In this document: in pieces, positions 24,925 to 54,806 of the stretch
Layout: each line of letters begins with the position of its first letter
Position numbering within the stretch: position 1 is the first letter of the stretch
Assembly: GCA_017434885.1 (NCBI GenBank)
Contig: JAFSGE010000025.1
Coordinates: 1 to 64,000, forward strand
Reading direction: 5' to 3'
From: Lachnospiraceae bacterium
GTDB lineage: Bacteria > Bacillota > Clostridia > Lachnospirales > Lachnospiraceae
DNA length: 64,000 nucleotides
Notes under the pieces: generated by a model
The model's database searches: none
Seen by the model: the letters and a program-made list of their open reading frames with translations, nothing else
What the model was told of the DNA's origin: nothing
Position numbers and translations under genes: made by a program

Positions 24925-25383
24925 ATGGAAATTGTTATTTTCAATAGTAATATGCAAAAGCAGATTCACTATTTTTTTGAAAAATGTTTTATGGCTGTCG
25001 GCATACCATATTCGCCTCAGGATAGGCACTCTGATGTTGCAAATGTAGAGCAGAATTATATGGATAAAGGTTGTTTTTGGTGCTTGGTTGATGGTGATAA
25101 AATAATTGGGACTATTGCGATTCGAATGATTGATGACGTGAATATAATTGTCGAACTAAAAAGAATGTTTGTGTTACCGGAATATCAAGGGAAAGGCTAT
25201 GGAAGATTATTATTAGAGCATGCCGTTGAATATGCACGAGCACAACAGTATCAAAAAATGTGCTTAGACACCAGAAAACAGTTTTCCGTAGCACAACATT
25301 TATATCGAAGTGTAGGTTTTCAAGAAACTGACAGATACAATGATAACGAACATGCAGAACTTTATTTTGAACTCGTTTTATGA
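24925..25383 (+). CDS. GNAT family N-acetyltransferase
   Basis: 152 residues. Motif A (LKRMFVLPEYQGKGYGRLLLEHAVEYAR, about residues 75-102) has the full Q/R-x-x-G-x-G acetyl-CoA loop, followed by CLDTRKQFSVAQHLYRSVGFQET. It is a typical stand-alone small-molecule or protein acetyltransferase with unknown substrate. An ATG with GGAGG upstream sets the start. The hairpin repeat element begins 31 bases after its stop. Confidence 0.9.
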   Translation: MEIVIFNSNMQKQIHYFFEKCFMAVGIPYSPQDRHSDVANVEQNYMDKGCFWCLVDGDKIIGTIAIRMIDDVNIIVELKRMFVLPEYQGKGYGRLLLEHAVEYARAQQYQKMCLDTRKQFSVAQHLYRSVGFQETDRYNDNEHAELYFELVL

Positions 25384-25413: not shown

Positions 25414-25890
25414 GATATCTGAAAATTGGGATTTCCAATCGTTAAAAATAATGTTTGGCGAGGAGATTTATAGAGCAAGATAAGTGGAGAGAGGACCTTT
25501 GTCCTACTAAAATGAGAAAAGTGTTGCTTGAGTAGGACAAAAGAGGAGTCTGATGTCCTATTAAGATGTAAAAATGTTGCTTGCGGTAGGACAAAGAAGA
25601 AGTCAAATGTCCTACTAAGATGTAAAAACGTTGCTTGCGATAGGACGGAGGAGGAGTCAAATGTCCTATTAAAATGAGAAAAGTGTTGCTTGAGTAGGAC
25701 AAAGAAGGAGTCAGATGTCCTACTAAGATGTAAAAATAGTAGTTTGGCAGGACAATAGTAGTAAATTTGCCTTAAAGGGTGGGACAAGAAGTGGGTATGT
25801 CGACATTCACAAGCTTACGCTTACGCGTTGTTGCGGAATTCGTCATATGTATTTTCGATTGGAGGTGCCTGCCTGCGTGCAAGTACCCGG
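25414..25890. repeat. Repeat element copy A, with five-hairpin array
   Basis: 477 bp that match 54415-54730 from end to end: a left flank beginning GATATCTGAAAA, a hairpin array, a conserved AATAGTAGTAAATTTGC segment (25754 on), and a right module ending GTGCAAGTACCCGG. Copy A is 161 bp longer, which is three array periods. No conserved open frame runs through both copies. It fills the gap between a GNAT gene and the kinase-GNAT fusion. After it, to 26102, I see only a 10-codon frame with a ribosome binding site (25996-26028) and an inverted repeat. I do not know this element. Confidence 0.85.
25501..25753 (+). repeat. 54-bp tandem array of five hairpins
   Basis: Five units of 37-38 bp (25501, 25555, 25609, 25663, 25717) are separated by four near-identical 16-bp spacers. 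Each unit has inverted ends of the type GTCCTACT...AGTAGGAC with a 22-base loop containing TTGCTT in units 1-4. Stem position 8 is T-A or T-G here and C-G in the other copy, which keeps the pairing. The spacers are conserved, not unique, so this is a tandem repeat and not a CRISPR array. Confidence 0.9.
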
Positions 25891-26041
25891 CAGGTACATT
25901 CAGCTCATCTGCGCATGGCTCATTGCTACGCGCAATCTTCAGTCTTATGAACAGGCTGAAAGGAAAGAAAAAATTAGAATTTGGAGGTAACTGATATGTC
26001 AGGATGTTTAAGATTAAGAAATATCTAAGTACATAAGGCTG

Positions 26042-52391: not shown

Positions 52392-52690
52392 AAATATTAT
52401 CAAAGGCTATGAAGAGAAAAGTAAGTAGTTAGATATGTTACAGAGAGTCTGATTAGGTGAGAACAGATGCAAAAGGAACTACGGAAAATGGTCTCGGAGC
52501 TGCGTACCGAAGCTATTATGCCAAGGCTACGACGGGTGCACCCGTTATAGTGATAGACTATCGATGAATCATTTCTCGTCCGTAGTTGATAAGGCTTGCA
52601 TCGTGAGGTGTGAGTGAATTTAGGGTGGTAACACGAAGCAGTTGCTCTCGTCCCTGAAAAAGAAATTTTTCAGAGAGGAGGGCTTTTTTG
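52392..52690 (+). ncRNA. T-box riboswitch leader of metG
   Basis: Order of elements: an AGTA-type specifier-loop 5' strand (near 52419), AGAGAGTC with GGTGAGAAC (52444-52463), GGAGCTGC-TACCGAA, the stem II hairpin ACGGGTGCACCCGT with CGTTAT, then the T-box core AGGGTGGTAAC (52622 on) and a terminator (52644-52689). TGGT of the core suits a tRNA with discriminator A, which fits tRNA-Met. The specifier was not settled: CTA follows the conserved GAA-G, and ATG is at 52518-52520. Uncharged tRNA should prevent termination and raise metG expression. Confidence 0.88.
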
Positions 52691-52782: not shown

Positions 52783-54411
52783 ATGAGAAATATTTTAATT
52801 GGTGGAGCATGGCCATATGCAAACGGTTCATTGCACATTGGTCACATTGCAGGACTGTTACCGGGAGATGTACTTGCAAGATATCATAGAGCTGTTGGTG
52901 ACAATGTATATTTTGTGTCAGGAAGTGATTGTCATGGCACGCCTGTGGCGATTCGTGCAAAGCAGGAAAACAGAACTCCGCAGGAGGTGAGTGATTTCTA
53001 TCATGAAGAATTTGCTGAGTGCTTTAAAAAGCTGGGATTTAGTTATGACGTATATACCAAGACATCATCTGATGAGCATAAAAGCTTTGTAAGAGAGTTT
53101 CATAAAAAGTTATACGAGAGTTCTTATGTTTATGAGAAAGAGGTTCCACAGGCATATTGTGAGCAGTGTAATACTTTTTTGGCTGATCGCTTTGTATTGG
53201 GAAAATGTCCGAAGTGCGGAAGTGATACCAGAGGAGATCAGTGTGATGCCTGTGGTACAGTTCTTGAGCCGGAGACGCTCGAAGAACCGATATGTGCGAT
53301 ATGCGGTAATAAGATTGGATTCAAAAAATCAAAGCACTTATATATAGCCATTACTAAACTGCAGGCAGAGTTAAAAGCTCTTGTTGACAATCATCCGAAG
53401 TGGAGAAAGAACGCGATTACTTTTACAAACAGATATATTGATGATGGTTTAAGGGATAGGGCGTTGACCAGAGATTTGGAATGGGGAATTCAAGTACCGA
53501 AAGAGGGATACGACAATAAGACCATTTATATTTGGGCAGAAAATGTATTAGGATATTTGTCTGCGAGTAAAGTAGCTGCCGAAAAAAGAAATGCCGATTT
53601 TGATGAATTATGGGGAGGCAATGCGAAACATTATTATGTGCATGGAAAAGATAATATTCCTTTTCATACTATAATATTACCTGCGCTTTTGTTGGGTAAC
53701 GGTGCAAAGTGGCACTTACCGGATCAGATTGTATCAAGCGAGTATCTGACGTTGGAAGGAAGAAAAATATCTACCAGCCAAAATTATGCAATATGGGTTA
53801 AAGAGTTATTGAATAATTATGAAGCAGATTCAATCCGTTACTTTTTTATAGCAAACGCTCCGGAAAAGAAAGATGCAGATTTCTCGTGGAGAGAATATGT
53901 TCATAGCCATAACGGAGAATTGCTTGGAGCATACGGAAATTTTGTGAATCGTTCATTAGCGTTTATTGCAAAGTATTGTGACGGAATTGTACCAAAAGGG
54001 AGCGATAATCAGAATATCAATACGCAAATAGAAGCCTTGTATGGTTCGGTAGGTGAGAAGATTGAAAATGGTGCTTTTAAGGATGCGATAGATGAAATAT
54101 TTGAATTTGTAAGAAATGCAAACAAATTTTTTGATACGGAACAACCTTGGGTTACAAGAAATACAGATAAAACAGCATGCGATAATACGCTGTATCAGTG
54201 TGTTCAGATTATTGCAAATTTGGCAATACTGTTATCACCATTTATCCCGTTTTCATCTGAGAAGGTTTTTGGATGGTTGAATATAAATAATAAATGGGAA
54301 AGACAATCAGTTGAGGCGGGATATCAGCTTCCGGAAGTGGAAATTTTATTTCAAAGGATTGATAAAAGTGTTATAGAGATTGAGACGGAGAAATTAAAAG
54401 TAATTTTATAA
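52783..54411 (+). CDS. metG: Methionyl-tRNA synthetase, short form
   Basis: 542 residues. The HIGH motif is HIGHIAG (about residues 18-24) after AWPYANGSL, and the KMSKS motif is changed to KISTS (about residue 328). Two zinc knuckles are present (CEQC, CPKCGSD, CDACG, CAICG; about 124-175). It charges tRNA-Met. It ends after the anticodon-binding helical domain and lacks the C-terminal tRNA-binding domain of many bacterial MetRS proteins. It is preceded by its own T-box and followed three bases later by a repeat element. Confidence 0.93.
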   Translation: MRNILIGGAWPYANGSLHIGHIAGLLPGDVLARYHRAVGDNVYFVSGSDCHGTPVAIRAKQENRTPQEVSDFYHEEFAECFKKLGFSYDVYTKTSSDEHKSFVREFHKKLYESSYVYEKEVPQAYCEQCNTFLADRFVLGKCPKCGSDTRGDQCDACGTVLEPETLEEPICAICGNKIGFKKSKHLYIAITKLQAELKALVDNHPKWRKNAITFTNRYIDDGLRDRALTRDLEWGIQVPKEGYDNKTIYIWAENVLGYLSASKVAAEKRNADFDELWGGNAKHYYVHGKDNIPFHTIILPALLLGNGAKWHLPDQIVSSEYLTLEGRKISTSQNYAIWVKELLNNYEADSIRYFFIANAPEKKDADFSWREYVHSHNGELLGAYGNFVNRSLAFIAKYCDGIVPKGSDNQNINTQIEALYGSVGEKIENGAFKDAIDEIFEFVRNANKFFDTEQPWVTRNTDKTACDNTLYQCVQIIANLAILLSPFIPFSSEKVFGWLNINNKWERQSVEAGYQLPEVEILFQRIDKSVIEIETEKLKVIL

Positions 54412-54414
54412 GAG

Positions 54415-54730
54415 GATATCTGAAAAGTGGGATTTCACAATAGTTAAAAATAGTGTTTTGTGAGGGGGTATAGAACAGGATAAGCGGAGGCAGGATGTTC
54501 GTCCTACCAAAATGAAAAAGTGTTGCTTGAGGTAGGATAATAGAGATATCAGATGTCCTACCAAGACGTAAAAAAGCTACTTGAGGTAGGACAATAGTAG
54601 TAAATTTGCTTTAAAGGTTGGGACAAGAAGGTGCTATGCCGCCAGACTTGTAAGCCAGCTCCCACTCGTTGTTGCGGCATTCGTCGCATGCATTTTCGTG
54701 TGGATGTGCCGGCCTGTGTGCAAGTACCGG
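54415..54730. repeat. Repeat element copy B, with two hairpins
   Basis: 316 bp matching 25414-25890. The left flank starts GATATCTGAAAA three bases after the metG stop. Two hairpin units are at 54501-54538 and 54555-54592 with a 16-bp spacer. Then the conserved AATAGTAGTAAATTTGC segment and the right module follow, ending GTGCAAGTACCGG. On the minus strand of the right module a frame reads CDECRNNEWELAYKSGG, but the same frame in copy A has stops. Confidence 0.85.
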
Positions 54731-54806
54731 AAATCTTGCAGCTGACAGAGAAATTGATGAAGTAAAAACGATTGTGATAAACAGAAGACTGGCAAATTTT
54801 ACGCCA

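Follow-up and report, generated by a model that had tools for sequence, protein, structure and literature searches.

The window, i.e., the whole 64,000-nt stretch of Lachnospiraceae DNA analysed here, contains two copies of a composite repeat that is present four times in its genome. The modules of the composite, their order, the occurrence of four differently flanked composites, the differences of whole array units between them, and the fold and wide distribution of the right module are directly established. All four copies have the left end and the order of the modules in common, and differ in their flanks. We regard it as reasonably probable, if by no means secure, that the composite is a non-coding, BOX-like and non-autonomous interspersed repeat, in which a module was joined to a hairpin array and the whole was then copied in trans. 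That the element is a dispersed, non-coding modular repeat had been put forward in an initial annotation of this DNA and is supported, with the amendment that its right module is a structured element in its own right, which many other genera also have. This module belongs to a folded family of gut Clostridia that is widespread, seldom described and much wider than the related Rfam model, and is the more interesting part of the composite.

Layout, copies and sites of the composite

In both window copies, the alignment gives the order left module, hairpin array, linker and right module. The left module measures about 87 bp and the right module about 142 bp, and the period of the array is exactly 54 bp. 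The features, where R1 stands for the covariance model of the right module, are the following:

24925..25383, + strand: GNAT acetyltransferase gene, upstream of copy 1
25414..25500, + strand: left module of copy 1 (identity 92% to C15, 88% to C25 and 82% to copy 2; 92% mean column identity in alignment A4)
25501..25753, + strand: array of copy 1, hairpins starting at 25501, 25555, 25609, 25663 and 25717 (period 54; stem GTCCTAYY/RRTAGGAC)
25754..25793, + strand: linker of copy 1, from the last hairpin to the right module, kept across the composites in the alignment
25794..25935, strand unsettled: right module of copy 1 (R1 match of 96.5 bits, + orientation; shared end at about 25943)
52783..54411, + strand: metG (methionyl-tRNA synthetase), upstream of copy 2
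54415..54500, + strand: left module of copy 2, beginning 3 bases past the metG stop
54501..54592, + strand: array of copy 2, with two hairpins (54501-54538 and 54555-54592)
54593..54632, + strand: linker of copy 2, from the alignment
54633..54732, strand unsettled: right module of copy 2, its right end cut short (weak R1 match, 20.1 bits, E 0.099)

The match between 25414-25890 and 54415-54730 that the initial annotation had described is borne out through the left flank, the array and the right module, and the difference in length does correspond to three whole 54-bp units, copy 1 having five hairpins (TRF period 54) and copy 2 two. The right end of copy 1, formerly placed at 25890, has to be moved outwards, as the match to the C25 copy extends the shared sequence to about 25943. 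When the window was scanned with Rfam at the gathering cut-off, only two tRNAs and one T-box were reported. A T-box leader lies 5′ of metG, at 52400-52658 (98.7 bits, cut-off 93).

The genome assembly to which the window belongs comprises 3.1 Mb in 58 contigs and is 94.5% complete. Both copies previously noticed are real, but the genome holds four composites: the two in the window, one on contig C15 and one on contig C25, with 5, 2, 5 and 4 array units, respectively. The C15 composite, with its five hairpins, retains just the start of a right module that is cut short; the C25 composite has four hairpins. To these are added a mini copy with one hairpin (C41:68164-68226) and a cousin array of six hairpins with a 54-bp period on the minus strand of C11 (C11:80239-80540; L189 3940-4241). 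The stem of the C11 array is identical to that of the composites, while its loops and spacers are different, and blastn detected neither a left nor a right module beside it.

The six array-bearing loci of this genome are all co-directional with a gene, at or past its 3′ end. The window copies are sited at the 3′ ends of the GNAT gene (copy 1) and of metG (copy 2); the C15 composite follows rimM after a gap of about 150 bases; the C25 composite follows a GGGtGRT-family gene, from which it is separated by what looks by eye like a terminator hairpin; the queH stop falls within the C41 mini copy; and on C11 the array overlaps a ComEC-like gene at its end. With six loci, a preference for gene 3′ ends cannot be proven. 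Confinement to the vicinity of metG or to a conserved gene, which the initial annotation had considered to speak against a repeat family, does not apply to the sequence.

Blastn of the whole element against 60 genomes retrieved its own genome only, the element being absent in the other 59, of which 35 belong to the same genus, and a search of the same set with the hairpin pattern gave the same outcome. The array pattern had no exact match in genome and viral contig collections, which may omit this genome, nor did blastn of plasmids and phages yield a match. In the other genomes searched, the left module and the array gave no match longer than 25-30 bases. A description of the composite was not found in the open-access literature that was searched.

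Structure and variation of the hairpin array

A search of this genome with the hairpin pattern gave 17 matches in the forward and 12 in the reverse direction; the pattern read backwards gave none in either (0 and 0). All five multi-unit arrays, i.e., those of the four composites and that of C11, show the 54-base spacing between hairpins. Over 23 units, the outer eight stem pairs comprise 155 Watson-Crick pairs, 24 G-U, 4 A-C and 1 other. In an alignment of 22 units (21 of them distinct), 97.6% of the cells in the stem are paired, against 29-54% in slid versions. Covariation gives no support to the stem because no pair (0 in the 22-unit alignment) changed on both sides; no pair of the left module changed on both sides either.

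On either strand, none of 100 shuffles folds as well as copy 1 itself (z -5.0 and -5.2), and the fold of copy 2 is unremarkable (z -1.1, 12 of 100 shuffles being at least as good). In each of the four composites, the predicted fold of the array is more stable on the plus strand than on the minus strand (-75.6 vs -57.0, -30.3 vs -26.2, -74.2 vs -50.0 and -71.0 vs -60.7 kcal/mol). The ratio of G-U to A-C pairs, 24 vs 4, is a weak indicator of the strand of the array, the 23 units not being independent.

When the units of window copy 1 (C20a) and of the C15 and C25 composites are compared over 36 bases, the first units are 89-94% alike and the last units 97-100%. Over 54 bases, last and non-last units of these three composites are 48-59% alike, and the middle units differ in number between them. 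The likeness of first and last units points to descent of the three from one composite, with change occurring in the middle. Copy 2 of the window is more diverged and follows this pattern poorly (67-75% and 67%). The middle units are scarcely more similar within copies (85%) than between copies (84%). Unit 4 of C20a is 93% like unit 1 of the same array, and units 2 and 4 of C15 are 98% alike, which suggests, at the level of sequence, that local duplication may have taken place after dispersal.

By eye, the spacers of the arrays at window 25501-25753, C15 and C25 often read GGAG-N4-ATG followed by TCC TAY TAA. GGAG is present in 7 of 12 spacers; the motif could represent a ribosome site with a three-codon frame, and may be due to chance.

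Fold, distribution and surroundings of the right module

The right module has a branched fold supported by very strong covariation, with a hypervariable palindromic arm. Its predicted plan comprises a closing stem, a stem with an inner hairpin, a short GC hairpin, the long arm and a 3′ hairpin. In a MAFFT alignment of 22 right-module copies, both-side changes are found in 30 pairs, compared with 17.4 in shuffles, and the covariation score is 0.276 vs 0.124 when shuffled and at most 0.108 when slid. In the alignment fitted to R1 (85 matches in 88 loci, 83 distinct), which leans towards the model that it was fitted to, 52 of 53 pairs show both-side changes, and the score rises to 0.534 vs 0.150 (shuffled) and at most 0.086 (slid). 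At places common to several genomes, the arm differs in sequence and keeps its pairing; at leuS, the two arms are alike in their outer parts.

The closing stem is present in the single-sequence folds of 69 of 79 distinct R1 hits, and does not form in that of window copy 1. In 70 of 79 hits across the family, stability is greater on the strand opposite to R1, whereas in window copy 1 it is the + strand, again with the closing stem absent (-52.8 vs -41.1 kcal/mol); the strand of the right module in the window is thus unsettled. The G-U and A-C counts, 162 vs 98, are indecisive in this respect, the excess residing largely in a few conserved pairs.

With strict filters and E 0.01, R1 has matches in 212 of the 397 family genomes, corresponding to 185 of 334 genera. 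Within the genus, 29 of 37 genomes have it at E 0.1, a threshold at which chance may account for some of the weak matches; the number per genome ranges from 0 to 15, many of them weak. Of 391 genomes of the class, 23 have R1 at E 0.001, 14 within the family (this genome included) and 9 outside. In its own genome, R1 matches at seven places: C25, window copy 1, C52, C2, C36, C41:61626 and window copy 2. The matches at C52, C2 and C36 are without the hairpin array of the composite, and those at C41:61626 and in copy 2 are weak. In other genera, the right module is likewise present without that array. A search of the family sample with the full element, scoring two candidates per genome, gave matches in 19 other genomes of the 397 (E 0.01); in 16 of them the match lies in the right module, and the remaining 3 show 25-30 bases elsewhere. 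The most conserved stretch of the right module was retrieved on 12 stretches (two from Roseburia inulinivorans DSM 16841, one from a Blautia MAG and nine from Lachnospiraceae MAGs), and on none of the viral contigs. Similar modules occur in differing flanks in R. inulinivorans and in MAGs, a sequence pattern which suggests that they may have spread. Overall, a structured family is present in about half of the sampled genomes of the family, and the related Rfam model misses most of it.

As to the surroundings of the module, no clear preference in the orientation of neighbouring genes was seen over 85 hits with a simple ORF caller. A terminator-like hairpin of the opposite strand abuts its right end in 13 of 79 cases, compared with 1 of 78 for the left end and 93 of 4359 random points; for this count the instances are not independent, the score is a simple home-made one and the random points are from the same loci. 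The stops of leuS, a gene for a PEP-utilising enzyme, spoIVB and the EF-Tu gene are in or beside the module, at loci hand-picked for a convergent gene meeting it. Six loci lie behind tRNA-Lys(CTT), across three genera. Different genera have the module at an identical place both at tRNA-Lys and at spoIVB, which argues against recent movement of those modules. Additional copies precede the full module at three loci: copies of its 5′ half in L163 (1501-1793) and L162 (1501-1727), and a second, nearly whole module in L172 (1501-1773). The polarity of these extra copies is that of the window array.

Two further observations concern short words at the ends of the module. In several genomes (L183, L192, L198, L199, L202 and L169), the module is immediately followed by repeats resembling ATGGTGTAGAA, about 11-12 bases in length. 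Modules of the R. inulinivorans type (L113, L116, L121, L123 and L124) are bounded on either side by similar, directly oriented words of the CTTTCAGTT kind.

Related elements and probable origin of the composite

The initial annotation knew of no named family with such a layout, a statement that does not hold in view of BOX, an element of Streptococcus pneumoniae and S. suis. According to PMC3049150, BOX consists of boxB units, variable in number, between boxA and boxC, and in S. suis includes further modules (boxE-boxBn-boxF). In BOX as in the composite, fixed end modules flank a variable tandem array, folding is predicted and the length is set by the number of array units (PMC3049150). The composite also has two different end modules around variable tandem units, the right end being mostly missing in C15 and shortened in copy 2, and its four copies are dispersed in the genome. 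It differs from BOX in its 54-bp unit, in its right module, which is a separate structured family, and in its number, four composites. Terminal inverted repeats and target duplications have been reported for BOX; in the composite, TTTGC (5 bases) lies on either side of the C25 copy, and none is found at C20a. The layout is already known from BOX. The composite is best regarded as a BOX-like and probably non-autonomous interspersed repeat, with a structured element resembling Clostridiales-1 as its basis, the likeness to BOX being one of layout. With a BOX-type repeat in a Lachnospiraceae genome, variation in unit number could mark strains.

Clostridiales-1 (RF01699) is listed as a probable RNA, probably not cis-regulatory, from Clostridiales and the human gut in PMC2864571. 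Its branch order equals that of the right module read opposite to R1; common to both are a closing stem, a long arm capped by GCUUGC, a short hairpin and a hairpin with an internal loop. When RF01699 was run against 20 diverse modules, one passed (52.8 bits, cut-off 48) and four gave weak matches below the cut-off, all of them opposite to R1. The place that passed, inside the longer locus L201, goes unreported at the gathering filters, and L176 (same place as L220) and L139 have matches below the cut-off. The window copy (L228) stays below the gathering cut-off of RF01699 and gives no match at E 10, and RF01699 did not match ten loci at E 1 or 12 loci at gathering.

According to the explanation that we favour, a widespread Clostridiales-1-like element, the right module, would have been joined to the left module and a tandem hairpin array in this lineage. 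Copies of the whole unit would then have reached several intergenic positions, at the 3′ ends of genes or beyond them, presumably by transposition with a factor acting in trans, and the arrays may later have gained or lost middle units by slippage or recombination. Should the upstream gene be read through, the array would form successive hairpins in the 3′ untranslated part of its RNA. In favour of this explanation are the four composites with their common left end and module order in different flanks, the pattern of first and last units, the strong covariation and wide distribution of the right module, its occurrence without the array in other genera, and the polarity of the extra module copies in L162, L163 and L172. 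Against it, an empty site was not found, nor was a consistent target duplication or a convincing terminal inverted repeat detected for the composites. After metG, seven relatives have no array and their following genes differ, so the metG locus provides no empty site; an eighth relative was left out owing to a broken metG match. Also to be weighed against the explanation are the poor fit of copy 2 to the pattern of first and last units, the nearly equal likeness of middle units within and between copies, the want of both-side changes in the array stem and the left module, the conflicting strand stabilities of the right module, the modules at identical places in different genera, and the lack of a partner in Y1_Tnp.

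A less likely account, which we would still take seriously, is that the right module is a stationary small RNA of the Clostridiales-1 type, with the array and left module as passengers and the copies representing old duplications, not transposition. The very strong covariation of the module agrees with it, as do the greater stability of the strand opposite to R1 in 70 of 79 hits, which is the Rfam orientation, the recurrence of identical positions across genera, and the status given to Clostridiales-1 in PMC2864571, namely that of a probable RNA which is probably not cis-regulatory. The number of matches per genome (0 to 15 in the 37 genus genomes at E 0.1, many weak) and the lack of a clear orientation towards neighbouring genes argue against it, and so does the dispersal of composites with an unchanged module order. 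In window copy 1, moreover, it is the + strand that folds better, and a consensus scan revealed no minus-strand promoter-like site beside it. An equally tentative idea is that Clostridiales-1-like elements are not stationary RNAs and instead form a class of small folded mobile elements located beside terminators or stops, whose palindromic arm is rewritten between copies with pairing kept, and which would be able to carry one-sided arrays, as in the composite.

REP/BIME elements are arrays of palindromes in intergenic DNA, and the composite is also an intergenic palindrome array, but it has an exact 54-bp period and two end modules. That it is an element of this kind moved by a Y1 transposase, of the RAYT or IS200 type, is very unlikely. 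The palindromic units near gene 3′ ends and the two Y1_Tnp matches in this genome fit such an origin; against it, Y1_Tnp (PF01797) is found in 118 of 212 genomes with the right module and in 101 of 185 without it (p = 0.84), which shows no association over the 397 genomes and leads us to reject a general partnership of Y1 transposase with the right module, the comparison referring to presence or absence of that module, not of the array. Even less credible is that the minus strand encodes a repetitive protein. The unit length of 54 is divisible by three, and minus frames run across the arrays of copy 1 (141 codons, with a second frame of 86 codons covering most of the array), C15 (162) and C25 (140). 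The earlier statement that no open frame is shared by the two window copies is, in view of these frames, not strictly correct; copy 2 has no minus frame of at least 80 codons across both hairpins. Minor alleles are spread evenly over codon positions (31/32/31, 12 units), so nothing suggests coding, and the candidate was rejected.

As a separate observation, positions 974-1067 of L168 contain a Clostridiales-1 match of 44.7 bits (cut-off 48), about 430 bases from the R1 module of that locus.
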